IMG/VR virus record: IMGVR_UViG_3300037227_000021 | Coordinates: 1-28,358 of that record | DNA from: a virus | Reading direction: 5' to 3' (one strand) | Length of the DNA: 28,358 bases | Shown: piece after piece, positions 1-20,205 of the stretch | Layout: every line of letters starts with the position of its first letter | Numbering within the stretch: position 1 is the stretch's first letter | Translations under genes and position numbers: made by a program | Notes under the pieces: generated by a model | Databases searched by the model: none | What the model was told of the DNA's origin: nothing | What the model saw: only the letters and a program-made list of their open reading frames with translations

Positions 1-190
1 GCTCACGCAGATTTTGCGTGTCGGCTTTCCTGATTTGGTCCTGGGAGCCAACCCAACAGCGCGCCACGCACCGCTTGTGCGCCTCGGTCAGAACGTCAAG
101 TCGCGCCCCAATGGCCGCCATGTCCTCCACACGCTCGCGCTCCATGGCGTCGAGCCTACGGACGATCACATCAACGCCGTCTTTGCTCAT
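1..190 (-). CDS. Coiled-coil protein, partial (3' end beyond window edge)
   Basis: An open frame starts at ATG 188-190 and runs 63 codons to the left edge without a stop. The start overlaps the TGA of the preceding gene as ATGA, so translation is probably coupled. The visible part is highly charged and helical: it begins MSKDGVDVIVRRLDAME and carries heptad-like leucine and isoleucine spacing, with two cysteines (near residues 41 and 45). There is no signal peptide or membrane segment in the visible part. I do not recognise a family. Its place directly behind a membrane-anchored coiled-coil gene suggests a partner protein. A lysis or host-interaction role is inference only. Confidence 0.6.
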   Translation of the reverse strand, partial: MSKDGVDVIVRRLDAMERERVEDMAAIGARLDVLTEAHKRCVARCWVGSQDQIRKADTQNLRE

Positions 191-696
191 CCACGCACCG
201 GCCTGGGGGTGGCGCCCGTCACGTCATGCGGGCGGCTCAGCTCCTCATTCTCATCACGCAGGCGCCGGTTCTCAGCCTCCTGCACGAGACGTTCGTTGCT
301 GGCTCGTATCGACGTCGCTGCGCCCGTGAGGGCCGTGTCGAAGCGCGCCCCGAGAGTGGTAAAACCCTTTTCAATGTCTGCAAAGGTCTTGTCGTGCGCC
401 TGCCAGGTGACCTCGACGAATTTCTGATTAAGCCGCTCCTCTGCATCCCGAAGGACAGAGACGGAATCCACCCTGCACGCAAGGCAGTTCTCGCGGATGC
501 CGGTGAAGGCCCGCGCGAGTTCTTTCATCGCCGCCGTGCCCTCCTTCTGCTGTTCGAGCACGCCCTTGAAGAACTCGTCTATGTGCACGAGAAGGCTCTT
601 GACGATGGACCGACCGGCCCAAAGCAGGAATCCGATCAGCGGAAACAGGATGGCGACTGCCACCCCGTAGTTCAGAAGCTTTTCGTTTGGAAACAT
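187..696 (-). CDS. Membrane-anchored coiled-coil protein (spanin-like or holin-like candidate)
   Basis: A 169-residue protein. Residues about 9-35 form one hydrophobic segment (YGVAVAILFPLIGFLLWAG), followed by a long charged helical region (about 40-155) likely to be coiled coil. A CxxC pair (NCLACRV) sits near residue 71. The layout, one N-terminal membrane anchor plus a long soluble coiled coil, resembles inner-membrane spanins of the Rz type, and it lies after the fibre genes where lysis genes often are. No endolysin or Rz1-like lipoprotein is visible, so the function is unproven. A GAGGAG ribosome binding site lies about 12 bases upstream of the ATG. The stop overlaps the next start as ATGA. 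The 110-base gap upstream holds nothing else I can support. Confidence 0.7.
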   Translation of the reverse strand: MFPNEKLLNYGVAVAILFPLIGFLLWAGRSIVKSLLVHIDEFFKGVLEQQKEGTAAMKELARAFTGIRENCLACRVDSVSVLRDAEERLNQKFVEVTWQAHDKTFADIEKGFTTLGARFDTALTGAATSIRASNERLVQEAENRRLRDENEELSRPHDVTGATPRPVRG

Positions 697-806
697 GGCG
701 CTGCGCTACTCCTCACTCGTTTGATCGGCTCGGCGTGGGCCTCCCATATGACGATCACGAGTCATCGAGCTTTCACCGTGATTTCTCCCACTATACCCGC
801 TAGCTC

Positions 807-3800
807 CTAGTGCCCCCACTGCTGCACGGTTAGTTGCGCGTCTTCCCAGACGTTGGATGACTTGTTGCTATAGCAAGTCAGCCCGCCACCTGACCACAGG
901 TTGCACAGCGACAAGTACACGGTGTGATTCCCAGCCGCCAGGGTTACTGTTCCTTGTGCGCTGATATTAAATGGGGCAGTGTTACCTGGGCTGCTCATCC
1001 CGTATGCAATCGCAGTGCTGTCGTAGGACAGGTAGAGCCCGCAGATGTAGGTTGCGGATGAGTTTGTGTGCCCTGTCAGCATTCCGTTGACGACGAACTG
1101 CGACGCCGTAGAAGTCGACGTAACGGAAACTGACGCGAGAGTGGTGCACACGCCGACTCCCGCCGATCTGTCCGCCGCATTTGCGGCTGAGTACACGTTC
1201 ACCACGTGGTCGGCGGTGACATTCATTGGCGTATACCCCAGCGCCGTGGTCACGTCCGAAGATCCAATGTTCGCAGTGTTGGTCACGAGCCCGGACGCAT
1301 TAACGGTGAGCTTGGTGTACGTGCCCGCAGTGACGACCGACCCGAGGGCGCTGGTGACGTCCGACGAACTGAGCGAGCCGACGGACGTCACCAGGCCGTC
1401 GGAAACGTTGATTGCGGTAACGTGAGTGCCGTTGACCCCGTTGGGCCCAAGCGGGGTGTACGGGGCGTTCGTGACATGCGTGGAATCGGTGAACACGGCA
1501 AAGCTTGGTGATGAGCATGTTCCGCTACACCCGATGCCAGTGCCAGAGCCATTGGTTACGCAGGTTGGGGCGCCCGTGGTCAGGTAGGTGAGTACCTGGC
1601 CGGCAGAGCAGACGCCGGCGGCTGGCAGGAGTAGATCGGCGATGGCGTGGCCATTATTAGTCAAATTGGTGCTGGTCAGCGCGCCATACAGCAACAAGTC
1701 GCCCAATCTGTCGAGCTGTCCGACCAAGGTACCTGTAAAATTCATCCCTGAGTAACCGGGAGTGAGCGACGTGTAAAAGTTCATAGCCCCCACAGATTGA
1801 TCATAGAGCTGCGCCATTCCGTACTGATTGTTGCTGCCCGGACCATACTTCATTTGGTAGCCTGAGTACGTCGCGTTGAATCCAATTGCGGGTGCGTAAG
1901 TTCCGCTGTTTAACGTGATTTTGGCCCCGTTAATACCTGCGGCTAGTGTCGTACCCGCACCAGTCAAATTGATCGTTCCACTCGAAACCTCATTCCCGCT
2001 CGGATCGAACTGCGTCTGCCCACTGTTCCCGATGCTGAGTAGTGCAGGCGCTGCGCTGGCGTTGCCGATGCTGGCGTTCACCTCGGTCGTGGTCGACGTT
2101 CCGGTGCCAGTCCCCGTGACCGTGACGGAAACGGTTCCGGTGGCAGTTTTCGTCAGCGTCGCGTAGCCGGTCGCCGTGATGGTGCCCGTGCCTGTGAGGG
2201 TGCCTGTGCCCGCGCCGGTCGCAGTCCCGGTGACGGTGGCGGTGACGATAAGAGTGCCGGTGCTCGTGGCGGTCGTGCTCGCCGTCGCGGTCCCGGTGCC
2301 AGTGCCAGTGAGGTTGCCGGTGGCAGTGTAGTAGGGTGGGGGGAGCGCTTGCAGCGCGCTCACAATTCGCGAGTCATCCCCCGCCGCAACCGTGCCCGCA
2401 GTCGTCCCTACATCCTTGGTTGCGGCGTTGCCTGCGGTTGTGCCGCTGACCACGAGCCCCTTGGTGTCGTACTGCACGAGCTTGTTTGTTGCGCCGGAGG
2501 CAGTAATGGCGGTGTTGGCCGCGACGTCACTTGCCCATGAGGCTACGCCAGTGCCATCGGTGTGAAGGGCCTGATTCGCACTGCCAGCCGTGGTGGGGAG
2601 AGTGAGCGCCCACGTGCCAGCAGTGGCGGCGGGCTGGATTGTGACGGTGCCGGAGGTGGAGCCAAGAACTTGGTAGCTTTGAGCCGCGAAGTAGTTGCTG
2701 CCCGCCATTGTCCAATTTGTAGGATTCAACGTACCAACAAGCGCGACGCTGCTAGCAGATGGCTTGGCGTAGAACCGAATGGCTCCCACTTCACTTCCAG
2801 CAGACCCACCCATTATCGCATTCATGGCAGCGAATCGGATCGGGTTTCCAGAGCCGTTGTTCTGCACGAAGTTCCAAGACTGTGAACTCGCGCCACCGTC
2901 TACCATTTGGTATTTTCCTGCATAGGTCTGCAATGAGAAGATCACAGGGTTCCATGAACACACATCTGTGTTCGTTCCCATGTAGCAGAGCTGTGTGGTA
3001 TTCACCCCGACAGCTATACCATTGTCATAGATGAGAGAGTTTCCTTCGGCGGTAGACGTCTCAGTTGACGTTGCGGTAGATGTTGTAGTAGTCGTGAACT
3101 TCGGCAAGTAGTTTTTTGTACCTGAGCCAGTGATACCGGCCAGGGTGGTATTGATCACGGTGATTGTGTCTGTGGTCGAGGCGCTTGATACCGTGGCCGT
3201 GCCGGTCCCTGTGCCTGTCTGCTTGATGATTTGGATGCCCGCGCCAGCGGTGATCTGGCCTGTCGCAAGGGACGTTCCAAATGCGGTGCCGTTGGCGGAA
3301 AGCGCCAGTGAAGAGACGGTCGCCGTGGCGGTGTTGGTTCCGGTGCCAGTACGCTGAGAGCAGACGATGTTTCCACCGCATACGAGCGTATTGGTTGAGG
3401 CGCGTGCGTCGGTCAGTCGCGGGTCGTCGGTGCCTACAACGTGGCTAGAATCGGCGCTCGTGTCGACGGGCAAGAAACTCCTAGAAATATGGCTATCTGT
3501 GCCGGTACACGCAATCACGCCGGAACCTGGCGTTGTGGTGCAGATGTCGGTTTGAGTAACCGAGTAGTTGCCGGCGACGACTTTGGAACTGTATGGAAGA
3601 TGTTCTACCGCGTAGGGTACAAATGGGTAGTTAGTGACCGGCGCGCCAGAGGACATCACTCGGTCGTATCCCGTGCTATTCGCCACGGCAACGAAGACGC
3701 CGTTACCATACTGGATGTTGGTCCAGCTATGGTTTGTTGGGTTACTGCGTAGGGTCCAGGCCACGCCGTCGGGTGAGGTCATGACCTGATTTGGGAAGCC

Positions 3801-4889
3801 TCCAGATGCCACGGCTACGAAAGTCTTTTCGCCATAGTTCAACGCGCGCCAGTTATTGTCCGCAGGGGTTGTCTGCCCCGTCCAATTTGCGCCATCTACA
3901 GAGGTCATTGCTCGGTTGCCCATGCCGGATGTCGAGGTTGAAACCCACAATCCATCGCCATATGTGAGGCCAAACCAGTTGTTAGCCGCTGGGGTAGAGT
4001 GGCTTGTCCAAGTCGTGCCATCTGGCGAAGACATAGCCGCGCCTGCGTCCCCGACAGCGACGTAGACGTTATTGGCGTACCACACGTTGTTCCACGCGGC
4101 AGATGGGATACCTGTTCCGAGTGTCCACGTCACGCAATCGGGGCTAGTCATGACCTGATTTGCAGTCCCTGTACTCGCAACTGCGACAAATCCATATACG
4201 CTTCCGTATGCTACCGACTGCCACGCATTGGTGGTAGTGGGTGTAGTTTGCCGTGTCCAATTTGCGCCATCAAGCGATGACATTGCCTGGTGACTTGAGC
4301 CATTCTGCGAGACTGCGCAGAAAACACCGTTTCCGAAAACTACACTGGTCCATTGCTGGTTGATGTCCGACGATGTTGTCCGTACCGTCCACTGGATTCC
4401 ATCGGGCGATGTCATCACCTGGTGTAGACCGTCAGATCCACCGTAGGCGACAGAGACGAAGCGACCTCCGTTATATGTGATGCCGTACCAGCTAGCCGAG
4501 TTGTTGGGCACGGGTGTTCGGCTGACCCAGGTAGTCCCTAATGGATTGATCCACGCATTAAGGCCACCGTTGGAGTCGGCGACGGGAATAGCCCAGGCTT
4601 GTGGTATTGCAGTGCCAATGTCGTTTGATAGGATGGTACTGGTCGAACACGCGTTCAGCGTGATGATCGATCCGCCGGGCAAGTTGACGACCGCCCCACG
4701 GGAAGCCTGCGAGCAAAACACCTGCCCGGTCTTGTGACTGGCGTTGATGGTCGTGGCGTCCTTCTGGGCAGCGCCGGCCGGGCCGGATGTTCCGTCTGTG
4801 CCTTCGGTCGTGGTCACACCCCATGCGGCGGGCGGCAGCGCCAGCGAGACGATGAACCAACCGAGGAGAATCGCGCGCGTGCGTTTCAT
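807..4889 (-). CDS. Giant tail-fibre-like protein with signal peptide and seven-bladed propeller
   Basis: A 1360-residue protein. The start at 4887-4889 is chosen because it overlaps the preceding stop as ATGA and begins a classic Sec signal: MKRTR, a hydrophobic core AILLGWFIVSLAL, then PPAAWG. A start 11 codons upstream is possible but would spoil the signal. Residues about 119-420 hold seven repeats of about 43 residues (W...V.YGNG.FVAVA..G..NQVMTSPDG..WT), the pattern of an Asp-box/BNR seven-bladed beta-propeller. Tail-fibre motifs GTDDPRL and AGDDSRI follow, together with Thr/Gly/Ala-rich stretches (TGTGTATxT). The C-terminal part has paired SSDVT.ALG repeats and a beta-rich tip ending QQWGH. 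It is probably a receptor-binding fibre or a secreted adhesin. A Sec signal is unusual for a virion fibre. G+C is lower than in the head genes. Confidence 0.82.
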   Translation of the reverse strand: MKRTRAILLGWFIVSLALPPAAWGVTTTEGTDGTSGPAGAAQKDATTINASHKTGQVFCSQASRGAVVNLPGGSIITLNACSTSTILSNDIGTAIPQAWAIPVADSNGGLNAWINPLGTTWVSRTPVPNNSASWYGITYNGGRFVSVAYGGSDGLHQVMTSPDGIQWTVRTTSSDINQQWTSVVFGNGVFCAVSQNGSSHQAMSSLDGANWTRQTTPTTTNAWQSVAYGSVYGFVAVASTGTANQVMTSPDCVTWTLGTGIPSAAWNNVWYANNVYVAVGDAGAAMSSPDGTTWTSHSTPAANNWFGLTYGDGLWVSTSTSGMGNRAMTSVDGANWTGQTTPADNNWRALNYGEKTFVAVASGGFPNQVMTSPDGVAWTLRSNPTNHSWTNIQYGNGVFVAVANSTGYDRVMSSGAPVTNYPFVPYAVEHLPYSSKVVAGNYSVTQTDICTTTPGSGVIACTGTDSHISRSFLPVDTSADSSHVVGTDDPRLTDARASTNTLVCGGNIVCSQRTGTGTNTATATVSSLALSANGTAFGTSLATGQITAGAGIQIIKQTGTGTGTATVSSASTTDTITVINTTLAGITGSGTKNYLPKFTTTTTSTATSTETSTAEGNSLIYDNGIAVGVNTTQLCYMGTNTDVCSWNPVIFSLQTYAGKYQMVDGGASSQSWNFVQNNGSGNPIRFAAMNAIMGGSAGSEVGAIRFYAKPSASSVALVGTLNPTNWTMAGSNYFAAQSYQVLGSTSGTVTIQPAATAGTWALTLPTTAGSANQALHTDGTGVASWASDVAANTAITASGATNKLVQYDTKGLVVSGTTAGNAATKDVGTTAGTVAAGDDSRIVSALQALPPPYYTATGNLTGTGTGTATASTTATSTGTLIVTATVTGTATGAGTGTLTGTGTITATGYATLTKTATGTVSVTVTGTGTGTSTTTEVNASIGNASAAPALLSIGNSGQTQFDPSGNEVSSGTINLTGAGTTLAAGINGAKITLNSGTYAPAIGFNATYSGYQMKYGPGSNNQYGMAQLYDQSVGAMNFYTSLTPGYSGMNFTGTLVGQLDRLGDLLLYGALTSTNLTNNGHAIADLLLPAAGVCSAGQVLTYLTTGAPTCVTNGSGTGIGCSGTCSSPSFAVFTDSTHVTNAPYTPLGPNGVNGTHVTAINVSDGLVTSVGSLSSSDVTSALGSVVTAGTYTKLTVNASGLVTNTANIGSSDVTTALGYTPMNVTADHVVNVYSAANAADRSAGVGVCTTLASVSVTSTSTASQFVVNGMLTGHTNSSATYICGLYLSYDSTAIAYGMSSPGNTAPFNISAQGTVTLAAGNHTVYLSLCNLWSGGGLTCYSNKSSNVWEDAQLTVQQWGH
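2080..2335 (-). repeat. Thr/Gly/Ala low-complexity shaft coding region
   Basis: This stretch of the fibre gene encodes about 80 residues dominated by alternating threonine (units such as TGTGTATA and VTVTGTGT). Codons for the repeated residues vary (ACC, ACT, ACG, GGC, GGG), so the amino-acid pattern rather than the DNA repeat seems to be kept. Shorter stretches of the same kind lie near 3060-3100, 3185-3230 and 3310-3350. Boundaries are approximate. Confidence 0.7.
3630..4535 (-). repeat. Seven Asp-box-type propeller repeats within the fibre gene
   Basis: At protein level the repeat-initial tryptophans fall at residues 134, 180, 223, 266, 305, 347 and 389, a spacing of 39-46. Most units share YGNG.FVAVA followed by MTSPDG..WT. 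The last unit lacks its final strand, and the first is preceded by a lone TTWVSRT strand, the usual ring closure of a propeller. The DNA copies have diverged, so this is an old duplication rather than a recent tandem repeat. Confidence 0.8.
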
Positions 4890-4966
4890 GCGAACACCTT
4901 CCATGCGACGTCGATGGCCCAAGCCAGAAGCAACATCGTTGCCAGGATGATTGCTCCGCTTCTCAT
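4886..4966 (-). CDS. Tiny single-span membrane protein (26 aa)
   Basis: The ATG at 4964-4966 overlaps the preceding TGA as ATGA, and its own TGA overlaps the fibre ATG as ATGA. The peptide is 26 residues, starting MRSGAIILATMLLLAWAID: one arginine, then a hydrophobic helix long enough to span a membrane, then a short WKVFA tail. No family recognised. The double overlap and its place between another small membrane ORF and a signal-peptide gene support that it is translated. It may be a holin-like or pinholin-like peptide, or only a coupling leader. Confidence 0.5.
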   Translation of the reverse strand: MRSGAIILATMLLLAWAIDVAWKVFA

Positions 4967-5097
4967 CGAGAGAACCTTTCCACGCCGCCGAACATCCAGC
5001 CCCATGCGGCCCACGCGGCGAAAATGACGGCCAGGCCGGTCGTGAAGAAAGCCACCAGAATCGCAGCGTCGATGTAGATGTCTTTGCGTAGGGTCAT
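4963..5097 (-). CDS. Small single-span membrane protein (44 aa)
   Basis: The ATG at 5095-5097 lies 6 bases after the stop of the 698-residue tail gene. The 44-residue product has a short charged N-terminus (MTLRKDIYIDA), one long hydrophobic stretch (about residues 11-36, rich in Ala, Phe and Trp) and a short basic end (VERFSR). The stop overlaps the next tiny gene as ATGA. No clear Shine-Dalgarno is visible, so it probably relies on coupling with the gene upstream. Small membrane proteins at this place in phage genomes are often holins or accessory lysis proteins, but no specific family is recognised. Confidence 0.55.
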   Translation of the reverse strand: MTLRKDIYIDAAILVAFFTTGLAVIFAAWAAWGWMFGGVERFSR

Positions 5098-5103
5098 GTA
5101 TAC

Positions 5104-7200
5104 TCAGTTTGACAGGATTTCCAGAGCCGCCGCGTAGACGGTTGTGGTCGTGCTGCTCGTGTTTTGCAGGCTGAAACTCACGTAATTTGCGACCGTGCTG
5201 TTGAATGTTCCCGATGTTGCGGCCTGTACGCCACTCGCCCCGATGGCTCCGACCTCTTCTTGTCCCGCACCCAAGTGCGTGGCGCTCGCCCCGATAGCCT
5301 GCACGCCCGAGATGCATTCGGCGTAGCGCGTGCCCGCGTTGGTGGCGGCGGTAGCGTAGCAGGTCACGACAGCAGCGTCGCTGGTTGTACCTGCCGAACC
5401 GACGCGCAGACGCCCAGTGATGATGGTCGTGGCTGCTGGGTGGTAGCTGGTGGAGACGCGAAACACGCTTCCAACCTTGAGTGAGTTGGCCGGGATGGGG
5501 AGTTGCGCTACAATGACCTCGGTGGTGGTCGTGACGGTGGCTGCGGCAGCCGTGGTCTTGAGCCCGTTGGCGCCGCCACCGCCGCCTCCACCTCCGGCAC
5601 CAGCGCTGCCCGTGCCGATGACGAGCGACAGGCCCTGGACCAAAAGCACGTGGGCGGCGTCGCTCGACGAGAGCACCAGCTTGACCGGCAGCTTGCCGCC
5701 TGGATTCGTGATGCTCGCCTGAAGCAAAATCTGCGTGTAGGAGCCCGTCCCCGTGTAGGTCATCGTGGCCGCGGTCGTGCCGTCGGCGGTGTCCTTGGTG
5801 CCGCCAATCATCACAGCTATCGTCCCGGTGGTACCAACGTCGGCGTTCGCCCAACCGTTCAGCTCGACGGGGATGGAGCCGGTGGGCAGGTTGTCGAAGT
5901 CGCCTACCGTCTGCGCGGCCGCTGGGACCACGGGCGTCGTGCTCAGGGTCGGATAGGTGTCGACCAGGGGGACGACGATGGATCCACTCGGGGTGATACC
6001 GGCCATCGCGAGCGCGAATGGGCACTTGATCCACGTGGCGTGCGACGGGTCGCTATAGCGCAGAAAAATCGTGACCGGCGTCGGCGAGGTCGTGCTCAAC
6101 ACCGGAATCGCGACGAGCTTTGACGTTGGTCCGAAAGGGATGTCGGCCGCTTGATTGTACTGCGGGGCCATCGGGACAGCAGACATGGTGAGCGGCGGGG
6201 AGACAATCTCGAATAGGTCAGTCCCTACGCCTTCGTCGTCCTTCAAAATCTTCCACTTGAACACCGTTACGCCTGTCGAATCGTCGTCGACGTAGACCTC
6301 GGGCAGATTCGCAGTCCAAAGTCCAGCCGTCAGCGAGCTGAGTCCAGGCGTACCCGCCAAGGTGATGAAGTTCTGCGGCCCCTCGGCATCGCCAGATAAG
6401 TATGTCCACGACATATCGAGCGTCTCGTTGCTGGCGCCTTCGCTGGTGAGCTGCGGGCCGGTCAATAGCTCATAGGCCAGCGTGGACGTGTAGCTGCTCG
6501 CCGTCGCGAACGTCAGCGTAGTGGTGTCGACCACGATAGGGTCGGCCGTGGTCAGCGTCCGCCAACGAGGCGTACCATCGCCGGAATCTTGCACCTCGAC
6601 CACCATACCGTGGCAAAGCCCGGCGGGAGTATTGGCGTCGGCGACGCGACGAATGACTGCCTTGACGGAATAGCTTCCGGTGTGGAGAACCTCGTAGATT
6701 CCAGCGCGCATCATCGACGATGGCTCGCTGTAAAACGGATCTACAAACAAGCGCTCACCAAATTCGACAACGACATTCGCGACGTCATTGTAGCGATAAA
6801 GGAAGCCAACGTTGTTGGCCTGCCAGGTGCTCACCCCTGCGATCTGCGTCCACTGGCTAAAGGAGAATCCATAGCCCATCGCATAGGCCGTGTAGCCAGT
6901 GCAGGGTGCGCGCAGAAGCGGATCGGGAATTTCGGATGGGTAGAGGGTCGAGGCGACCACGGCCGGCGGGAGCGGTGGGACTTCCGGATGTTGATGCGTC
7001 CCCTTGGCGTAGGTGAGATCGCTCGGGTCGCCAGCGCTGCCTCCTCCGCCGTCCATGGTTGGAATCGCCAGCGACGGCTGGGGCAAATCCTCCAGCCGAG
7101 CCGCATCCGCCGGGGCAACGGGCGCGCCGAGATTGCGCCCCGTGACGGCTCCTTGCCCGTCGCGGTTCAATCCCCAAAGTCGGCGCGGACCCTTGGCCAT
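5104..7200 (-). CDS. Large tail-tip/fibre-associated protein (698 aa)
   Basis: A 698-residue beta-rich protein in the fibre cluster, starting at ATG 7198-7200, one base after the stop of the gene upstream. The first 80 residues are proline- and glycine-rich and flexible. Residues about 85-425 are of unknown fold. Residues about 433-530 form a domain also present in the 197-residue protein at 10214-10807 (shared TGT.A..IGGT, then SY...I, NPGG..PVKL.L.SS). A glycine run follows at about 536-543. The C-terminal domain (about 550-698) has LPIPANSLKVGSVFRV and LRVGSAGTTSDA, patterns common in phage fibre domains. No catalytic motif is seen. Probable role: tail-tip structural or adhesion protein. 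Confidence 0.75.
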   Translation of the reverse strand: MAKGPRRLWGLNRDGQGAVTGRNLGAPVAPADAARLEDLPQPSLAIPTMDGGGGSAGDPSDLTYAKGTHQHPEVPPLPPAVVASTLYPSEIPDPLLRAPCTGYTAYAMGYGFSFSQWTQIAGVSTWQANNVGFLYRYNDVANVVVEFGERLFVDPFYSEPSSMMRAGIYEVLHTGSYSVKAVIRRVADANTPAGLCHGMVVEVQDSGDGTPRWRTLTTADPIVVDTTTLTFATASSYTSTLAYELLTGPQLTSEGASNETLDMSWTYLSGDAEGPQNFITLAGTPGLSSLTAGLWTANLPEVYVDDDSTGVTVFKWKILKDDEGVGTDLFEIVSPPLTMSAVPMAPQYNQAADIPFGPTSKLVAIPVLSTTSPTPVTIFLRYSDPSHATWIKCPFALAMAGITPSGSIVVPLVDTYPTLSTTPVVPAAAQTVGDFDNLPTGSIPVELNGWANADVGTTGTIAVMIGGTKDTADGTTAATMTYTGTGSYTQILLQASITNPGGKLPVKLVLSSSDAAHVLLVQGLSLVIGTGSAGAGGGGGGGGANGLKTTAAAATVTTTTEVIVAQLPIPANSLKVGSVFRVSTSYHPAATTIITGRLRVGSAGTTSDAAVVTCYATAATNAGTRYAECISGVQAIGASATHLGAGQEEVGAIGASGVQAATSGTFNSTVANYVSFSLQNTSSTTTTVYAAALEILSN

Positions 7201-7201
7201 C

Positions 7202-7927
7202 CTAGTATCCGGCTAGTCGGAAGCTCACCACGCAGGTCGATCCGGCTCCCGCATTGCTCACGATGATTTGAGAGGTGTTGGCACCGAGTGACTTGATTGT
7301 TACTATGGTTGTTGATGGGGATAAGTCGGCATAATTCGCCGATTCGTAATAAATCCCCGATGGCATTGCCGCTCCAGCAGATAGCGTGATGACCGTGACG
7401 CCGTTTCCCCCGGTCAAGGGTATCGTTACCCTTCCCATCACCTCGAGAAAAATCGTAGAGCTGCCCATCTGCGTTTGCAGAATCGTCCCGAGCGTGGCGC
7501 CATTGTTGGCTGAAACTCCAGTAACTGAAGCCGTTGCGGCCGTGGTGGGGAGCAATGCCGCTATATCTGTGTAGCTGTGTCCCCACTTTTCCCAGTTACT
7601 GCCGTCTGAAGACGGTTTCGTCCCGACCGTTGACGTGTGCCCGACCTTAACCCGGTATGTGTTGTAAGAGTCGGTAACGTCTGTGGTTAGCATACCTTGG
7701 GTATAGGTGAGCGTGCTTTTCCAAGCGGTCACGCCAAGGAACCCGGCCAAATTCTTGAACAGGAATGCAAGGTGGTCCGCCGCGCTCTTGTAAGCCTGCG
7801 CCCACGTCGAGGCGTTGATCTCGTCGACGCCATCCTGGGGGAGGTTGAAAACGGGCATAGTGCCCCATGCGGGCGCGACGTCCGGTGCTTGGACTCCTGT
7901 TGGGTTGCCTGTGTATGGTGTTGCCAT
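7202..7927 (-). CDS. Putative tail fibre / carbohydrate-binding tail protein (241 aa)
   Basis: A 241-residue protein. The N-terminal 65 residues (FNLPQDGVDEINASTWAQ) resemble the baseplate-attachment segment of short fibres. Residues about 72-117 read Y..GMLTTDVTDSYNTYRV with P..DGSNWEKWG, a pattern similar to small chitin-binding modules of the CBM5/12 type. Residues 120-170 are Ala/Thr-rich, and the end is a beta domain finishing VSFRLAGY. A GAGGAA ribosome binding site sits just before the ATG. Its G+C is visibly lower than that of the baseplate genes. Likely receptor or cell-wall glycan binding; the assignment rests on pattern and position. Confidence 0.68.
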   Translation of the reverse strand: MATPYTGNPTGVQAPDVAPAWGTMPVFNLPQDGVDEINASTWAQAYKSAADHLAFLFKNLAGFLGVTAWKSTLTYTQGMLTTDVTDSYNTYRVKVGHTSTVGTKPSSDGSNWEKWGHSYTDIAALLPTTAATASVTGVSANNGATLGTILQTQMGSSTIFLEVMGRVTIPLTGGNGVTVITLSAGAAMPSGIYYESANYADLSPSTTIVTIKSLGANTSQIIVSNAGAGSTCVVSFRLAGY

Positions 7928-7935
7928 TGGTTCCT

Positions 7936-8742
7936 CTATTCAGTGGTGATGCCTGGATCGATGAAGATTGCGGTCCCGAGACTGCCGAGCGTCGCGGCGC
8001 CAAGGCTGCCGAGCAGTCGCCCTGCCGGCCATCCAAGCAGAGGATTACCGCTCGTAATCATTGAGGCGCCCTCATAGATTGCCCCACCACTGCGCCACCG
8101 CTGCACCGTTTGATTCAGACATGCCTTCGCGGAGTTTCCGTCGGTGTTTGCGAGCCCGGTGACTGTGGTGCTGAAAATTATCATGAAGTGCGAATAGAAC
8201 TGATCGCGCACATCGAGCGTGAACCCATTCAAGAGGGGCGATGGGATGGTGCCGAGCATATTCATTCGATTCGAGCACGCCCCGGCTGCAAAGATTGTGA
8301 GATTTCCACTTCCGTCTAGAACGTAGATTTTCCCAATGTGATTGACAAGGTAGGTTTGGGTCGCTGGGAATCCCGCAACTTTGAGCTGAGTCAGAAGTCC
8401 GAGGGGCATCCCGGCTTGAGCCCAAGTGGTCCACGCCTGATCGAGTCTGGCCGCGTAGGCGGTCAATGCTTCGTCGGTTGCGCCTGGAGTAGAAACAGAC
8501 CCGCGCGGAAGAAGCCGATCGTTTCCGTGCTCCAACAAAGCGTCGAGCGCGCCGACGCTGGCGCAGTAGTCTGGACCGCGCAACTTCGCCGCCGCTCGCA
8601 TCTTGGTGACTTGGTCATCCATAACGGCGCCCACGGCGGACCAGATGGCGTTAGAGTTCTGACCGTGCGCCCACGGCGGCCCGTTCGGCATCCCGTCGTG
8701 TTCGGGCTGCTGTAGCCACGCCTGGTAGGTCTGGCCAGCCAC
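7936..8742 (-). CDS. Baseplate/tail protein in the gpI (Mu gp48) position
   Basis: A 268-residue protein. I choose the GTG at 8740-8742 because it overlaps the baseplate J stop as TAGTG and has a GGAGG site about 8 bases upstream; a frame extension further upstream lies inside the J gene. Position directly after baseplate J and before the fibre genes is that of P2 gpI or Mu gp48, which links the baseplate to fibres. The sequence (residues about 40-130 helical and tryptophan-rich, later beta-rich, with a glycine/leucine-rich hydrophobic stretch near 235-262) does not show a family signature I recognise firmly, so the role rests on context. Confidence 0.65.
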   Translation of the reverse strand: MAGQTYQAWLQQPEHDGMPNGPPWAHGQNSNAIWSAVGAVMDDQVTKMRAAAKLRGPDYCASVGALDALLEHGNDRLLPRGSVSTPGATDEALTAYAARLDQAWTTWAQAGMPLGLLTQLKVAGFPATQTYLVNHIGKIYVLDGSGNLTIFAAGACSNRMNMLGTIPSPLLNGFTLDVRDQFYSHFMIIFSTTVTGLANTDGNSAKACLNQTVQRWRSGGAIYEGASMITSGNPLLGWPAGRLLGSLGAATLGSLGTAIFIDPGITTE

Positions 8743-10217
8743 TATGCAACCTCCAGCCAAGTGAGCTGAGTGGACAAGTCGCCGCTCGGAAGCGCCGCAC
8801 ACGAAGTTCGAGATAGTGTGATGTTCGCCGCCGAGCTGTTGAGCATCAGGCCAGAGGTATCGTAGGCGCCTGCATCCATGATGGCCTGCTCAAGCTCGGA
8901 CAACAGAACGAATCCCCCCGGCTGGCTGCCCCCGATGGGGAGGGCGGCAATATAGGCGGTCCAAGATTTTGTAGCTGCGGCTTGCACGCTCGCAGTTGTC
9001 CCTCGATGGGTGTAGACGGTCCCGGTCGGATTCACGGTCAGGGATGCAGCCGATTGGACGTTGGCACTCTCGATGTCTGACACCCTCACGTCAGTATAGC
9101 TCTGGACCGCCGACACTTGCGTCGGGGTGGCAGTCGCAGTCGGCCCGGCCAGAAACACGTCCTCTTGTCCCGCCACCACAATCGACGGCTGCGACCAAAA
9201 CTTTGTGAGCCCGAGGTGTTGGGCGGCGTTGCATGCTTGCGCCCACGCGACATAGCGCCCTGGCGTTGCAATCGGCGACTGTGATGGAAACTGCCCGCGG
9301 CACCGAGTGGCCAGCGCCGCAAGTGTCTCCTTATCGGTTCCGATCTGAAGATACGGGCTGCCCGGCACGCTCACCGTCCACGTGTCGCCAGCGTTGAAGC
9401 TCGTTGTCGAAACTGGCCCATCGGTAAGGGTTACCGTTAGATCCCCCTGTGTATAGGTCGCGTTCGCCGCGTATGGACCGAGTACGGTTTGGCTTGTGCC
9501 CTGGTAGACCGTCGCGGTGAAGTAGGCAGAATGATCGCTCACCCTGCCCGCCGTCGTGAACGTGATGACCACCGTGCGCAGGGTCGTCGTGATGCCGGTC
9601 GAGGTGACAGCTATGGTGCCTGTGCCCGAGATGGCACTCGTCGGTTGCCCCGCAGCGGTTGTAAGATTCGACACCGACACGCCAGGAAGTGGTGTCACCA
9701 TCGCAACGACCGAGCCAGCGGCGTCGATGGCGATGGCCCCAGGCGTCTGGCTTTGGAAAACCGCCGTCACACTGCCCCCGTTGGGGATCGTCACCACATC
9801 CGTATTCGTGTAGTTGTTTCCCGTGCTGGGCGAGTAGGCAATGATGCCCCCCGCCGGCTGCGTGTACGGACCAGGGCCGGAAGTGCAAGTCAGGGTCAAA
9901 TAGATCTTCGTGTAGGTCGCGGGGACTCGGTTCAGCCCGTAGCCGTTCCACGCGAGCAACTCCATCCATCCGTCGATCAGGTTTCCGTTTGCGTCCACCA
10001 TCGTCGAGGCGTAGTCGAGGAAGTTGGCGCCGGCCAAAAATGGGATCAGGTTCTCGCGGTCGAGCAGCCCCGTGGTGAACATCTGCATGATGGTCAACGC
10101 GACGCCGCCCTCATACCAGTCAGTCACGGGCAGGTTGTTCGCCTGCATCGATCCGAGCAAGATCGCCTGAAGGGTCGTCTGATTTCGCGCTTGAAGCAGA
10201 TCCGAGAGGGTCGTCAT
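8742..10217 (-). CDS. Baseplate J-like wedge protein with inserted beta domain
   Basis: A 491-residue member of the baseplate J / Mu gp47 family. The family plan is visible: an N-terminal helical part with FLDYAS and NRVPAT (about 66-101), IPNGGSV and TPGAIAIDAAG (about 144-168), PGVSVSNLTTAAGQ (about 178-191), then GTDKETLAALATRCRG (about 293-308) where the usual G.D.ET...L..R motif follows. Between the last two lies an extra Thr-rich beta segment of about 95 residues (195-290). It builds the wedge ring of the contractile baseplate. Its ATG overlaps the preceding TGA as ATGA. Confidence 0.88.
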   Translation of the reverse strand: MTTLSDLLQARNQTTLQAILLGSMQANNLPVTDWYEGGVALTIMQMFTTGLLDRENLIPFLAGANFLDYASTMVDANGNLIDGWMELLAWNGYGLNRVPATYTKIYLTLTCTSGPGPYTQPAGGIIAYSPSTGNNYTNTDVVTIPNGGSVTAVFQSQTPGAIAIDAAGSVVAMVTPLPGVSVSNLTTAAGQPTSAISGTGTIAVTSTGITTTLRTVVITFTTAGRVSDHSAYFTATVYQGTSQTVLGPYAANATYTQGDLTVTLTDGPVSTTSFNAGDTWTVSVPGSPYLQIGTDKETLAALATRCRGQFPSQSPIATPGRYVAWAQACNAAQHLGLTKFWSQPSIVVAGQEDVFLAGPTATATPTQVSAVQSYTDVRVSDIESANVQSAASLTVNPTGTVYTHRGTTASVQAAATKSWTAYIAALPIGGSQPGGFVLLSELEQAIMDAGAYDTSGLMLNSSAANITLSRTSCAALPSGDLSTQLTWLEVA

Positions 10218-10807
10218 GATGTGATGCTCACTTCCACGCCCTTGACGATCACGTCGTCGCCCGTGGCGCTTGATTGCAGGGTCAGCTTGACGGGCTGGGT
10301 TCCGCCTGGGTTCGAGAACGTCGCCGAGGTCGTGATCGTCTGGTAGCTCGAAACGCTGGAGATGGCCGCGCTCACCACGACCACGCCGTCAATGCCTTCG
10401 TCGGTTCCGCCCACTCGAATTGCAACGGTGCCAGTCCCGCCGCTGGGCACCTTTCCGTAGCAAGTGAGGTGCACCGTGAGGGTAGCGCCGCCCGGCGTGA
10501 AGTTGCCGAGGCTTTCATCCATGACCGACTCGGTGGTGACGTCGCTCGCGTAGACGCCGTCAAAAGAGGGCGCCACAAGTGCGCCGCCGCTGATTCCCCC
10601 GCCGCCGCCCGCGCCTTGTATGCCTGGGTTTCCCTGCGGCCCGGTCTGCGAGATGAGCGTCACCTGTTGCGCGACCGCCGCTTGCCCCACCAGCGGCACC
10701 TGTGGGTTGCCCTGGTTGAGGAACTCGACCGACACGTCGCCAATCGAAGCGATGAACGTGAAAGGCCCATCGGCGGACTCACCTTGTACGCGCAGATTCA
10801 GGCCCAT
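10214..10807 (-). CDS. Baseplate-associated protein with collagen-like linker and Ig-like/beta domain
   Basis: A 197-residue protein. The ATG at 10805-10807 overlaps the preceding TAA as TAATG; longer forms would read through the neighbour. Residues 1-48 form a small beta domain. Residues about 53-75 are GPQGNPGIQG followed by a glycine run, collagen-like. Residues about 100-197 form a beta-sandwich-like domain that is paralogous to residues 433-530 of the large protein at 5104-7200. Mu has no gene here between its gp46 and gp47 equivalents, so this looks like an inserted adhesion or decoration module on the baseplate. Function is inferred from context only. Confidence 0.72.
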   Translation of the reverse strand: MGLNLRVQGESADGPFTFIASIGDVSVEFLNQGNPQVPLVGQAAVAQQVTLISQTGPQGNPGIQGAGGGGGISGGALVAPSFDGVYASDVTTESVMDESLGNFTPGGATLTVHLTCYGKVPSGGTGTVAIRVGGTDEGIDGVVVVSAAISSVSSYQTITTSATFSNPGGTQPVKLTLQSSATGDDVIVKGVEVSITS

Positions 10808-11115
10808 TAGGGATCCCCCGTCAGTACCAGCGAAGGCACATTCGATTGCACGCGCGGATCCTTGTCGAGTTCGCGCTGTGTCTGCGCCGTGATGCCCGCC
10901 ATCTCGGACTGTGAGACGTCGTTGTTGAGCTGGCCGGGCAGGTCGTATCCGTAGTCCGAGTCGCCCCCGATGGCCACCATGCAGCCGGCGGGTGAAGAAA
11001 TTCGACGAAGCAAGGCTGCTTGCAAGTTCTGCTGTCCCCACACTAGCGTGAAGTGCGGATCAATGTCCGTTACCGCGAGGATGTCGACGCCAAGGGGATC
11101 GGCTGCGTTGCTCAT
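10807..11115 (-). CDS. gp25/GpW-like baseplate wedge protein (Mu gp46-like)
   Basis: A 102-residue protein. The order hub/spike, this gene, baseplate J is the order of Mu gp45-gp46-gp47, and its size fits the T4 gp25 / P2 gpW lysozyme-related wedge family. It begins MSNAADPLGVDILAVTDIDP and has ALLRRISSPAGCM, comparable to the ...L...L.T..G......YG pattern of the family, followed by GDSDYGYDL. It probably bridges the hub and the J-type wedge. Its ATG overlaps the upstream TGA as ATGA, and its TAA overlaps the next start as TAATG. Confidence 0.72.
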   Translation of the reverse strand: MSNAADPLGVDILAVTDIDPHFTLVWGQQNLQAALLRRISSPAGCMVAIGGDSDYGYDLPGQLNNDVSQSEMAGITAQTQRELDKDPRVQSNVPSLVLTGDP

Positions 11116-12299
11116 GTGACGTTCACCGTGGGCGAGAGGTAGGGCATTTCCTTGATGACCGGCAGAGCGCCGGCCAAGGTCACCGCCTGCGCGGACAATG
11201 TCCCAGAGTTCAGCCCCGTCGAGAATGTCGTCAACGCCTGCAACAGAGCATTGAGCATCGTTTGCAAGTTGTCGCCTTGGGGCACCGGGTGGCTCGCCGA
11301 CTTGCTGCCTAGGTTAACCTGCTCGGCCTGAAACGAAACCTTGAGCGGCACCAAGTCGCCCGACCACAGCGCCGCGAAGGGCTTGTCAGGACTGCCGTTG
11401 TCCCAGCCGACCACGAGATAGGAACCAAGCTCGACCGAAACGCGCGCACCGGGGATGCCGTGGCGGAGCGGTAGCTGGGCCATGTCGGGCAAGTCGGGGT
11501 CGTCTGGGCGCACGTCCACCTGGTCAGAATCGCCGTTTTGAGCCACGACTTTGCCACGGTATAGGGTGCGGTAGGCCGCCGTTGGGTCGTTCGCTTGGAG
11601 CGCGCGAAAGGCTGACTTTGTCCTGTCCAAGGCCGCGCCGGGGTTGGTCACGTACATGACCGTCGTGCGCTCGTCGTCGAGGTGGTGGGTCACGAAGTCG
11701 ACCTGGCGCCCGTTCAACGTGGTGCCAGGCCACACCGCCGGCACGTCTGTCCCGATCAGCTCAGTCGCCGATGAGCCGTTCTCTTCCATCGATCGAAACG
11801 GCGTCGGGCACGCTGGCCACGTCTCCGGGCCAATCCATACCGTCCCATCGAACAGCATTCGCCAGGTGACGCCCTTGCCGATAGTTTCACATAGGGCGGC
11901 CATGACAGCCCCGCCGGGGTCTGCCATCGTCGTCCAGGCTTCGAGCGTGGTGTTGAGGGTAACAGGGTCGGAGGTAGCCGAAAGCGTCTCCCCGGCGTCG
12001 CCAAGAAGCTGGGCGAGCACCTGGCGCACGGTCGGCCGGCGGAAGTGCTTCTTGGTGGCGATATTGGACAGCCCGCCGGAGCCGCCGACGAGTCGCACGT
12101 GGACGCTACCCAAGACGAGTTCTGACCGAACCACCGCCGCCGGCATGATGACGCTGGCGAGCGTGACGGTGATCTTCCCGACTGGCGGCTCAAGCCCATT
12201 CGCGGAAATGTCGGCCATCCAAAGCCCCGTGCGCGGAAAGTGTAAGTCCCCGTTCGTGACCTGGAAAACTGAGCCATCTTGTAGCGTGATTTGCAGCAT
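11112..12299 (-). CDS. Baseplate hub protein with C-terminal spike OB-fold
   Basis: A 395-residue protein from ATG 12297-12299, which overlaps the upstream TGA as TGATG; a GTG one codon earlier is also possible. Residues 1 to about 230 fit a hub (gp27/Mu gp44-like) protein: beta-rich, with VRQVLAQLLGDAGE and a tryptophan-rich centre. Residues about 245-330 show the OB-fold pattern of gpV/Mu gp45 spikes (GKVVAQNGDSDQVDVR, RHGIPGARVSVELGSYLVVG). The end (about 350-395) is a helix plus a short tail with no beta-helical needle and no HxH iron site. Hub and spike, separate in Mu, appear fused here. Assignment of the two halves is by pattern. Confidence 0.75.
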   Translation of the reverse strand: MLQITLQDGSVFQVTNGDLHFPRTGLWMADISANGLEPPVGKITVTLASVIMPAAVVRSELVLGSVHVRLVGGSGGLSNIATKKHFRRPTVRQVLAQLLGDAGETLSATSDPVTLNTTLEAWTTMADPGGAVMAALCETIGKGVTWRMLFDGTVWIGPETWPACPTPFRSMEENGSSATELIGTDVPAVWPGTTLNGRQVDFVTHHLDDERTTVMYVTNPGAALDRTKSAFRALQANDPTAAYRTLYRGKVVAQNGDSDQVDVRPDDPDLPDMAQLPLRHGIPGARVSVELGSYLVVGWDNGSPDKPFAALWSGDLVPLKVSFQAEQVNLGSKSASHPVPQGDNLQTMLNALLQALTTFSTGLNSGTLSAQAVTLAGALPVIKEMPYLSPTVNVT

Positions 12300-13087
12300 C
12301 ACGGTCCCGCGTTCGTTTGGGCTGGGCTGCCCTTGCCGTTGGCGGCCAGTGCTCCGTTGATCTTGTTGGTCAAGGCGCCGGGCTTGCGCGTGTCTTGCTG
12401 TCCTTTCACCGACTTGACCGCCGACTTGGAAACCTTCGGAGCCGGAACGTACTCGACCGCCGTCAAGATGATCTTCATCTCGCCGGGCTGGTCGCCGGGC
12501 TCTGGCGTCGATGGCGCCGTGATGACGATGGTGTGAATCCCGAGCTGATTGATCGCTGGGTTGACGATAGAAAGTGAGCGCTGTTCTCCTACCACTGCGC
12601 CTTGATCCCTCTGCTCAGCCCCGACCTTCCCAGTCTTGCCCAGCACAACCGACTGGGCCGAGACCTTGTCCGGGCGGTTCCAAATCTTTGGGAAGACCGT
12701 CTGATACATCGCCCACTGACTAGGCGTCCAAAGCTTTCCCGTCAGGGTGATATTCTTCGCCGGGTTGTAGCCACGGATCACGAGGGCCGCGCCGTCGAGC
12801 CCCTTCGGCTTTTGGACGTCGATCTGAATTGACGGCTTCGCGACCGCGTTCCAAATCCCAGGCAGGCCATACCCGCCGAGGGTCACGCGATCCCATGGGT
12901 TCGGGGCGAACAAGTCGCCCTCGATCCCGTACATGTCGAAGCCGCCGGGCCCGCCGCCGGGAATGGGAGTTCCGTTGTCCCAAAACGGCTGCAACATCGA
13001 TGCATCGAGAGCCGATCCATATTGGCTCTGATCGATTGGCACACCCTTGATCTTCGTGGCCGGTTGCTGTTTCGTGATGGACGCCAT
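12299..13087 (-). CDS. Tail/baseplate adaptor protein (Mu gp43 position)
   Basis: A 262-residue protein directly after the tape measure gene, stop-to-start distance zero. The N-terminal part (residues 1-60) is rich in Gly and Pro (NGTPIPGGGPGGFDMYG). The middle has RGYNPAKNITLTGKLWTP and a beta-rich region to about 220. The last 40 residues are basic and Ala/Gly-rich and probably disordered. In Mu the gene in this place is gp43, an adaptor between tail tube and hub often named DNA circularisation protein. Sequence likeness to that family is not obvious to me, so the call is positional. Confidence 0.6.
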   Translation of the reverse strand: MASITKQQPATKIKGVPIDQSQYGSALDASMLQPFWDNGTPIPGGGPGGFDMYGIEGDLFAPNPWDRVTLGGYGLPGIWNAVAKPSIQIDVQKPKGLDGAALVIRGYNPAKNITLTGKLWTPSQWAMYQTVFPKIWNRPDKVSAQSVVLGKTGKVGAEQRDQGAVVGEQRSLSIVNPAINQLGIHTIVITAPSTPEPGDQPGEMKIILTAVEYVPAPKVSKSAVKSVKGQQDTRKPGALTNKINGALAANGKGSPAQTNAGP

Positions 13088-18286: not shown

Positions 18287-18873
18287 GCCCGCTTCCCTTC
18301 GTTGGCCCACCGGCCAAGCAAGCCTTTGGCCTCTTTGCCGATCATCGCGTTCCACGTGGAAGGCATACCGTGTTCAGCATCGGGCAGTATCATCCGCTGC
18401 GGAATCGTGATGCCGTTCGCGTAGGTTGCCCGCTTGGCAATGATATGCTTGCCCTTCTCGCGCAAGTTGGCGAACTGACCACCAAGCCGAGAGTGCGGGG
18501 AGATATGCGCGCCGTTCTGGTGCGCCGCCGCGTAGCCGGTAGCAATTGCCACGCCCCCCGCGTTCCCCCGCCATACCGGCGCGGTGCTGTTCCGCATACG
18601 CGCGGTGTCCGTGAGAATCTTGTGGCCACGCGACTTCTTCCCCGAGCGTTCACGCGCGATGCGGGCGCGCTTGTCACGGCTGCGCTCTTGCGCCAACGGC
18701 TTAAACGGCTTGCCGTAGGGGTCGCGCTCGTTGCGGAAACAATCCATGGTCAGCTTCACGCCGCCCGCCGCGATCAACTGCGACAACACCGGAAGATGCG
18801 CGTTGGCCTGAATCTGCGCAAGCCGACGGATGCGCTCCTCAAGTTGAGCGCGGTTGAACGTCACGCCTGCCAC
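18283..18873 (-). CDS. Phage virion morphogenesis / tail completion protein (GpG/GpS-like)
   Basis: A 196-residue basic protein. The start is GTG 18871-18873, with GGGGAGG about 7 bases upstream; the frame to 19140 overlaps the neighbour and is noise. It has the family layout of the pfam05069-type virion morphogenesis proteins: RDPYGKPFKPLAQ (P.G..W.PL), then KILTDTARMRNS (ILT.TG.LR.S), GGVAIATGYAAAHQNG (V.IGT...YA..HQ.G) and a late IPQRMILP (IPAR.flG). It joins heads to tails or completes tails. In Mu the similar gpG gene sits next to F; here it lies between the gp36-like and gp37-like genes. Confidence 0.85.
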   Translation of the reverse strand: MAGVTFNRAQLEERIRRLAQIQANAHLPVLSQLIAAGGVKLTMDCFRNERDPYGKPFKPLAQERSRDKRARIARERSGKKSRGHKILTDTARMRNSTAPVWRGNAGGVAIATGYAAAHQNGAHISPHSRLGGQFANLREKGKHIIAKRATYANGITIPQRMILPDAEHGMPSTWNAMIGKEAKGLLGRWANEGKRA

Positions 18874-18874
18874 G

Positions 18875-19345
18875 TTACCGCCTCCCCACGAACGCGCCGC
18901 CGTAGCAATTGCCCTGCGAGGTGTACCCGCGAGGCTGATATGACGAAACCTGCACCGTGCCCCCGCCCTGCACCTGCCCGGGGAAGCTGGCCGGCGCCGA
19001 GTCTTCCACGTTCGGCGTCGCCTTGCTGTTCGAGATGTCGACGAGCCAGTGGATCGCCTCGTCGTAAGCCGCCTTGATTTGTTCGTCCGACGCCCGCGCC
19101 GAATTGAATCCGCGGGCCTGAATGATCGTGTAAACGGCAATCTTCGCGCACGCGCCGGTTATGTCCGACCCCCAGGCCAACAGGGGAAGGGTGAAACGTG
19201 ACCGGAGGTAACTGTCAATCACATCGCTAGCCGCGCCGATGTTGGCCTGGAGGATCGAAGGGTCCACATTGGCAATCGCCTCAGCTCGGATCCCGTAAAG
19301 GGAGAGCTGGGCGATTGTGCAATATGCGGCTGAGGGGAGAATCAT
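18875..19345 (-). CDS. Neck/connector protein, DUF1320 (Mu gp36-like)
   Basis: A 156-residue protein from ATG 19343-19345 (TAATG overlap with the gene upstream). It follows the DUF1320 pattern: an N-terminal region with IAQLSLYGIRAEAI, then ILQANIGAASDVIDSYLRSRFTLPL, TGACAKIAVYTIIQARGF and AAYDEAIHWLVDI. Family proteins are head-tail connector subunits that stack under the portal. The C-terminal 45 residues are Ser/Gly-rich and unusual for the family, ending GGAFVGRR. The long frame to 19669 is not credible beyond this start. Confidence 0.85.
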   Translation of the reverse strand: MILPSAAYCTIAQLSLYGIRAEAIANVDPSILQANIGAASDVIDSYLRSRFTLPLLAWGSDITGACAKIAVYTIIQARGFNSARASDEQIKAAYDEAIHWLVDISNSKATPNVEDSAPASFPGQVQGGGTVQVSSYQPRGYTSQGNCYGGAFVGRR

Positions 19346-19743
19346 TATGTGTCCGTGTAGCGCTGAAAGGACATCGTGGGCAGAGTTCCGGCGGTTCCGG
19401 TGTCGTCGGTGAGAACTGCGCCCGTGCCGCCGCTGCTCGGCGTGTAGGCGATTTGAATAAACGGCGCGGCCGGCGGGATGCTCGCGATCAAGCAAGTCCC
19501 CGCCGAGCCAGCCGGTTGGGGTGTGATGGTGAACGTGTACGATTTGCCGGCGGTCCCTTGTATCCCGTGGTTCGAGAAGTTGATCGAGAACGCGCCGTTG
19601 GGCGAGCCAGTCGCAGGCCATCCGAGCCCAACAGAAACGTAAGCAGTCCCTTGTGGAATGCACACCCATTGACTGAGCAAGGTGTTGCTCATGTCGTTGA
19701 CGGTGCCCTTGAAAATGAGCTGCTTGAGGTCGCCGGCTGCCAT
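19345..19743 (-). CDS. Hypothetical structural protein (132 aa)
   Basis: A 132-residue beta-rich protein between the gp35-like and gp36-like genes. It begins MAAGDLKQLIFKGTVNDMSN. The centre (YVSVGLGWPATGSPNGAFSI, then GKSYTFTITPQPAGSAGTC) resembles a small jelly-roll or Ig-like domain, and the end SFQRYTDT is short. No family recognised. It may be a head decoration or neck protein. An AGGT site precedes the ATG; its TAA overlaps the next ATG. Confidence 0.65.
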   Translation of the reverse strand: MAAGDLKQLIFKGTVNDMSNTLLSQWVCIPQGTAYVSVGLGWPATGSPNGAFSINFSNHGIQGTAGKSYTFTITPQPAGSAGTCLIASIPPAAPFIQIAYTPSSGGTGAVLTDDTGTAGTLPTMSFQRYTDT

Positions 19744-19749
19744 GATGTT

Positions 19750-20205
19750 TTACCTGCGCTTGGGTTTCGTGGCTTGTTCGAGCAAATCTTCGTTGGCCTT
19801 GGCCTTCGCGGTGCTCACGCTGAGCTGGTCAGCGAGCCCCTTGATCGTTTCGTGAGCGTGGTCGAGTTCGGCTTCGAGCTCTGCGATGCGACGAACGAGC
19901 GCGACATTATCGTCAGCTCCCGACGCTTCATCCTTGCGCCGGCAAGTGAGCTGCGGATTGGCACGGATGCCTGCCCACTCCTCTTGTCCGATGATCGTCG
20001 GGTGCAAAAGTGTGCGGCCCGCGATGTGCTGATTTGGGATGGTCGGACACTTCAGTTCGTCGAGGACGATGACTTCGGTGTCCGTGGCGCTTGTCCAGAA
20101 CCGGTCGCGCGTCCAAATGCCTGGGTGACCGGCGCTTGTCCGGTCTGCCGCACGGACTAGCCAGACCGTGCCTTTCTGGGTTACCTCTTCCGTTACCTCG
20201 GACAT
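19750..20205 (-). CDS. Hypothetical head protein, Mu gp35 position (151 aa)
   Basis: A 151-residue protein after the capsid gene. The start at 20203-20205 is chosen for the ribosome binding site AAAGGAG 6 bases upstream, which is nearly identical to that of the tube gene. The N-terminal two thirds hold strands and a tryptophan-rich part (WLVRAADRTS, GIWTRDRFW, PQLTCRRKDEAS). The C-terminal 50 residues form a clear coiled coil (VALVRRIAELEAELDHAHET) ending in a basic KPKRR. Mu gp35 sits at this place and is of unknown role. It may bind the capsid or the connector. Confidence 0.7.
   Translation of the reverse strand: MSEVTEEVTQKGTVWLVRAADRTSAGHPGIWTRDRFWTSATDTEVIVLDELKCPTIPNQHIAGRTLLHPTIIGQEEWAGIRANPQLTCRRKDEASGADDNVALVRRIAELEAELDHAHETIKGLADQLSVSTAKAKANEDLLEQATKPKRR

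Follow-up and report, generated by a model that had tools for sequence, protein, structure and literature searches.

In the usual view, tailed phages produce and assemble their fibres in the cytoplasm. Proteins that act on receptors away from the virion are also encoded by phages. In phage T5, the gene for the receptor-blocking lipoprotein Llp is adjacent to and downstream of the gene for the receptor-binding protein pb5, and pb5, when added, itself blocks T5 infection (PMC9586334). That tail-fibre-type proteins can serve as cell-surface adhesins is known from PblB of Streptococcus phage SM1, for whose pneumococcal relative SMART predicts a signal peptide (PMC4508584). Here we describe an uncultured phage in which a long fibre-like protein, encoded in the tail operon, carries a predicted Sec-type export signal.

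The stretch analysed (the window, 28,358 bases) is an entire IMG/VR virus record. On the minus strand are genes for terminase, a Mu-type portal, the gpT major head protein, the tail sheath, a tape-measure-like protein and baseplate J, followed by a fibre block. The closest cultured relative is Myxococcus phage Mx4 (portal 37%, head protein 33%, part of baseplate J 30%), a Mu-like myophage (PMC8530038). The Mu-like head genes suggest that the window phage may be temperate, and transposition genes are absent from the record; to place the host among the myxobacteria is no more than a guess. At the contig edge (27946-28356), a C-5 cytosine DNA methylase is represented by a C-terminal fragment. After the fibre gene, 187-696 encodes a protein of 169 aa whose N-terminus holds a membrane segment, and a protein of similar build is also found after the Mx4 tail genes. 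Residues 153-273, in the C-terminal part of the protein encoded at 10214-11041, share 34% identity with residues 406-528 of a 698-aa tail-fibre-type protein (the adaptor, a working name), a likeness that marks an internal duplication within the tail operon.

The signal-bearing gene (Table 1) is located downstream of the genes for baseplate J, the Mx4-type fibre and the adaptor, as a member of the tail operon. Its extent is as originally predicted; its strand, which had been left unsaid, is minus. The ATG at 4889 and the TGA that closes a 26-aa membrane ORF overlap (gcATGA); that ORF in turn overlaps a 44-aa membrane ORF, which starts a few bases after the adaptor gene. The Shine-Dalgarno energy at this ATG is -9.4 kcal/mol (background mean -3.4, 5th percentile -8.2), versus -0.9 kcal/mol at GTG codon 25, the nearest alternative start that drops the hydrophobic segment. 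Given the overlap, the ribosome-binding site and the selection on the signal codons described below, the ATG start is well supported.

Table 1. Features of the fibre block; positions are those of the window and residues those of the 1,360-aa protein.
Feature	Position	Strand	Remarks
241-aa Mx4-type tail fibre without signal	7202..7927	-	linked by position and an N-terminal likeness only
698-aa tail-fibre-type protein without signal (adaptor)	5104..7200	-	homologues in L006, L020, L121
44-aa membrane ORF (MTLRKDIYIDAAIL...)	4963..5097	-	related to 32-aa ORF directly before L006 protein B gene
26-aa membrane ORF (MRSGAIILATMLLLAWAIDVAWKVFA)	4886..4966	-	ATGA overlap at both ends
Signal-bearing fibre-like gene, 1,360 aa	807..4889 (ATG 4889, stop 807)	-	ATGA overlap and Shine-Dalgarno
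Sec-type signal peptide, residues 1-24 (MKRTRAILLGWFIVSLALPPAAWG)	4818..4889	-	own heuristic; dN/dS 0.15, codons 1-33 versus L006
N-terminal module after signal, residues 25-95	4605..4817	-	in common with L006 protein B
Seven-bladed beta-propeller, residues 121-414	3648..4529	-	AlphaFold model, Foldseek
Fibre-shaft-like region, residues 430-1220	1230..3602	-	direct reading
GTDDPR, residue 486	3417-3434	-	GxDxR-type motif
AGDDSR, residue 836	2367-2384	-	GxDxR-type motif
Thr/Gly-rich stretch, residues 872-960, 35% Thr	2010-2276	-	
ALGYTP, residue 1216	1227-1244	-	fibre motif
C-terminal domain, residues 1235-1360	810..1187	-	probable knob, from sequence

The protein has much of what defines a phage tail fibre. 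Motifs of the predicted GxDxR type are present in two copies, together with an ALGYTP motif and a Thr/Gly-rich stretch, and mosaic sharing with other uncultured phages (L006 and L020) indicates modular exchange. A tail fibre should also be a cytoplasmic protein without an export signal, which does not apply here, given the Sec-type N-terminus and its supported start. On that basis we would class the product as fibre-like rather than as a virion fibre.

The N-terminus consists of MKRTR, AILLGWFIVSLALPP and AAWG, corresponding to the n-, h- and c-regions of a Sec signal peptide plus a cleavage site. Signals were scored with our own heuristic, not SignalP, and among the window genes tested it flags this product alone. 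Across the loci compared, 431 gene-like ORFs reach 300 aa or more, and it flags 18 of them, 14 outside the four focal loci (window, L006, L020 and L121). Almost none of approximately 77 propeller ORFs from 80 viral loci has an export signal, so that such signals are scarce among ORFs of a comparable kind. Protein B of L006, a 64.9-kb IMG/VR contig, is 62% identical to the window protein over residues 1-91 and has a counterpart of the signal at the same position (MRRTRAILLGLFIASLALPPAAWA). Across signal codons 1-33, 16 are identical between the two, 11 differ synonymously and six nonsynonymously (NG86: dN 0.114, dS 0.764, dN/dS 0.15). The scarcity of nonsynonymous changes indicates that this segment is translated and under constraint. 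In both proteins a signal-peptidase-compatible AWG/AWA site follows a PP helix breaker, so the permanent membrane anchor offered in the original prediction is less supported. The predicted Sec signal itself is upheld by sequence criteria (the heuristic), by purifying selection and by recurrence in four genes of three other phages, and on these grounds export from the cytoplasm appears to be the better reading. Paired cysteines are weak support for a periplasmic life: they cluster in the window protein (p = 0.019), and cysteine enrichment, which is not significant (p = 0.15), was dropped as proof.

A complete seven-bladed propeller, as predicted, is seen in an AlphaFold model of residues 112-430 (pLDDT 90.7, pTM 0.90) that drew on 34 aligned related propellers; residues 1-460 modelled by themselves gave a pLDDT of 34. 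The 28 strands of the model are read as seven four-stranded blades, with the N-terminal strand (121-124) closing blade 7, closure being taken from the strand list and not from coordinates. The blades are not of the Asp-box type that had been proposed: the canonical Asp-box (BNR) motif SxDxGxxW has zero copies, and the repeat is instead SxDGxxW, with five exact copies and one variant. The closest PDB folds by Foldseek are streptogramin B lyase and YCF48. Foldseek matches many phage proteins as well, among them the tail fibre of a Caulobacter phage and a baseplate wedge protein of a cyanophage. The propeller is thus a customary binding module of phage tails and, as a frequent element of their proteins, not unusual by itself. 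An intact, unannotated propeller-repeat ORF was also identified on the plus strand of Synechococcus phage B23 (L002 4997-5836), where the annotation puts two hypothetical proteins on the minus strand.

Four signal-bearing fibre-like genes were identified in three other uncultured phages: two adjacent genes in L006 and one each in L020 and L121. The first of the L006 pair (protein A) matches the minor tail protein family phrog_2012. The search for the same fusion, proposed with the original prediction, recovered the order signal, propeller and fibre in a 1,242-aa protein of L020, an 82.8-kb contig with baseplate J; the start of this gene overlaps the preceding gene by ATGA. L121 has the head type of the window (gpT), and its signal-bearing fibre is, in part, 59% identical to that of L020. 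The signal sequences differ among L006A, L006B/window, L020 and L121, and thus it is the character of the segment that recurs, not its sequence. All of this rests on uncultured contigs, and the four focal phages are not fully independent.

Searches with the whole protein and with the N-terminal module, run against cultured phages, genomes and viral contigs, returned, besides propeller matches, only the L005/L006 pair, which has identical matches on two contigs and is probably the same phage. No long signal-bearing fibre was found in thirteen baseplate J-adjacent regions of bacterial genomes, several of which are related Mu-like prophages. Cyanophage matches to L006A involve its C-terminal part only, and none of the cyanophage ORFs checked, with only one of the matched proteins (S-CBS4) among them, has a signal. 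Signal-bearing propeller ORFs in L081 (lipoprotein-like), L089 and L090 look cellular on inspection and were set aside. In the open literature searched, we recognised no report of signal-bearing tail fibres, an absence that is not proof. A further exception among the propeller ORFs is in L057 (2980-8803), where the gene for a signal-bearing, fibre-like protein of 1,725 aa overlaps that of a tail terminator, with one more signal-bearing ORF after it; this phage is unrelated, and by a guess its host may be among the Bacteroidota. Shortly after the two signal-bearing genes of L006 are the ends of an IS200/IS605-type element (18383-19980; ORFs resembling TnpA and TnpB, judged from their translation).

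The adaptor homologues of L006, L020 and L121 are linked at 25-73% identity. In all four phages the adaptor gene is close upstream of a signal-bearing gene, and in L020 and L121 it is directly upstream. Between the window and L006, DNA identity is 94% in the adaptor core (966 aligned bp), 90% in the small membrane gene (40 aligned bp) and 80% in the signal module (155 aligned bp). No Mu-type portal was recognised in L006, a weak absence since the portal search matched no control genome either, and no gpT was recognised there by a search that did match one control and L121. Identity of up to 94% despite apparently different head genes suggests that the adaptor/fibre block moves as a cassette, for which exchange in phages sharing hosts would be the simplest account. 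In L121 (3271-9272), the adaptor and signal-bearing fibre directly follow a gene like that at window 11112-12302, and a search of the contig yielded no baseplate J. From this position, the place of the cassette in the tail operon seems to vary. More distant adaptor matches (L143-L156) were rejected as a common tail-fibre domain only, with no long signal-bearing fibre downstream; a further match at 41%, in L142, ends at the contig edge.

We tentatively favour a role for the 807-4889 product as a late, Sec-exported, fibre-type receptor-binding protein that would act away from the virion and mask receptors on the cell that makes it and on the debris of that cell. The gene would be expressed late, judging from its position, and its overlaps with neighbouring genes may couple its translation to the end of the tail operon. 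The first 24 residues would direct Sec export and be removed by signal peptidase, consistent with their sequence, selection and recurrence. The mature protein, putatively a trimer, would comprise the modelled propeller head, a fibre-like shaft and the C-terminal domain. Outside the cytoplasm it may bind envelope receptors or glycans of the host, and masking could spare loss of progeny or lower superinfection, which is the weakest step. The DNA comparison supports the suggestion that the gene and the adjacent adaptor gene move together, as a host-interaction cassette that can be exchanged. Off-virion action is favoured because export is otherwise hard to square with cytoplasmic tail assembly, and because of the T5 arrangement, in which the gene for Llp neighbours the receptor-binding gene and infection is blocked by receptor-binding protein added by itself. 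Receptor blocking, one of the functions first suggested for this protein, is possible. Against the favoured reading we count the partnership with the adaptor, which would suit a virion role too, and the passage that so large a protein would have to make across an outer membrane.

It is rather unlikely that the product is an ordinary virion fibre assembled in the cytoplasm, with a docking or trimer-nucleating N-terminal segment that resembles a signal. Fibre N-termini are the usual docking site, the tail-operon position and fibre motifs suit such a protein, and annotated tail fibres and baseplate proteins contain this propeller too. A docking segment is expected to be conserved per baseplate, however, whereas unrelated signal sequences occupy the same place in L006A, L020 and L121; the positively charged n-region, the hydrophobic core and the PP break with its AWG/AWA site also argue for a true signal.

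The joint occurrence of adaptor and signal-bearing genes in four phages, their joint exchange between backbones and the fibre position held by the signal-bearing gene are consistent with a fibre that is exported, matures in the periplasm and docks on the tail via the adaptor as the membranes collapse at lysis. We consider this unlikely: the adaptor has no signal, and we know of no precedent in tailed phages for an exported fibre that docks onto the virion at lysis. It is likewise unlikely that there is a whole class of exported tailed-phage fibres that dock via a dedicated adaptor only at lysis, with the cassette spreading between unrelated phages.

The surface adhesin of the lysogen put forward in the original prediction, which would act in lysogenic conversion, is less supported and seems improbable to us. 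Mu-like head genes suggestive of a temperate phage and the example of PblB (PMC4508584) speak for it, but the gene is in an overlapping tail operon, no promoter-like match (sigma-70 type only) was found on its minus strand within 1-8000, no cell-surface anchoring domain was recognised, and the record is without transposition genes. Translation from GTG codon 25, giving a protein without signal, is highly improbable: this GTG is present in both the window and L006B, but so is the ATGA overlap, the Shine-Dalgarno energy at the GTG is far poorer, and codons 1-33 are under selection.

If the reading of a conserved export signal on fibre-like proteins is true, these genes represent either a new, fibre-based form of host-receptor blocking or a new route for assembly of a virion part, and a fibre annotation need not mean a virion protein. 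Among known proteins, YCF48 and streptogramin B lyase have the propeller fold at a similar size, but are only 9-16% identical to the window propeller and come from an unrelated context. YCF48 is a lipoprotein, and hence exported as proposed for the window protein. The fibre of Caulobacter phage Percy and the baseplate wedge proteins of S-CAM9 and S-SSM7, known here by match only, share the propeller fold and the tail location, whereas comparable propeller ORFs almost all lack a signal. The receptor-blocking exported proteins Llp of T5 and Cor are phage-encoded and signal-bearing, as is the window protein, and Llp is encoded beside a receptor-binding gene (PMC9586334), as in the window layout. 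However, Llp works from the periplasm as a small lipoprotein, whereas the window protein is fibre-like, 1,360 aa in length and without a lipobox. PblB of the Streptococcus mitis phage SM1 is a tail-fibre-type protein that is an adhesin off the virion (PMC4508584), similar to what is proposed here, but its release depends on permeabilisation of the cell by lytic induction, and no cassette of propeller, signal and adaptor is described for it (PMC4508584).
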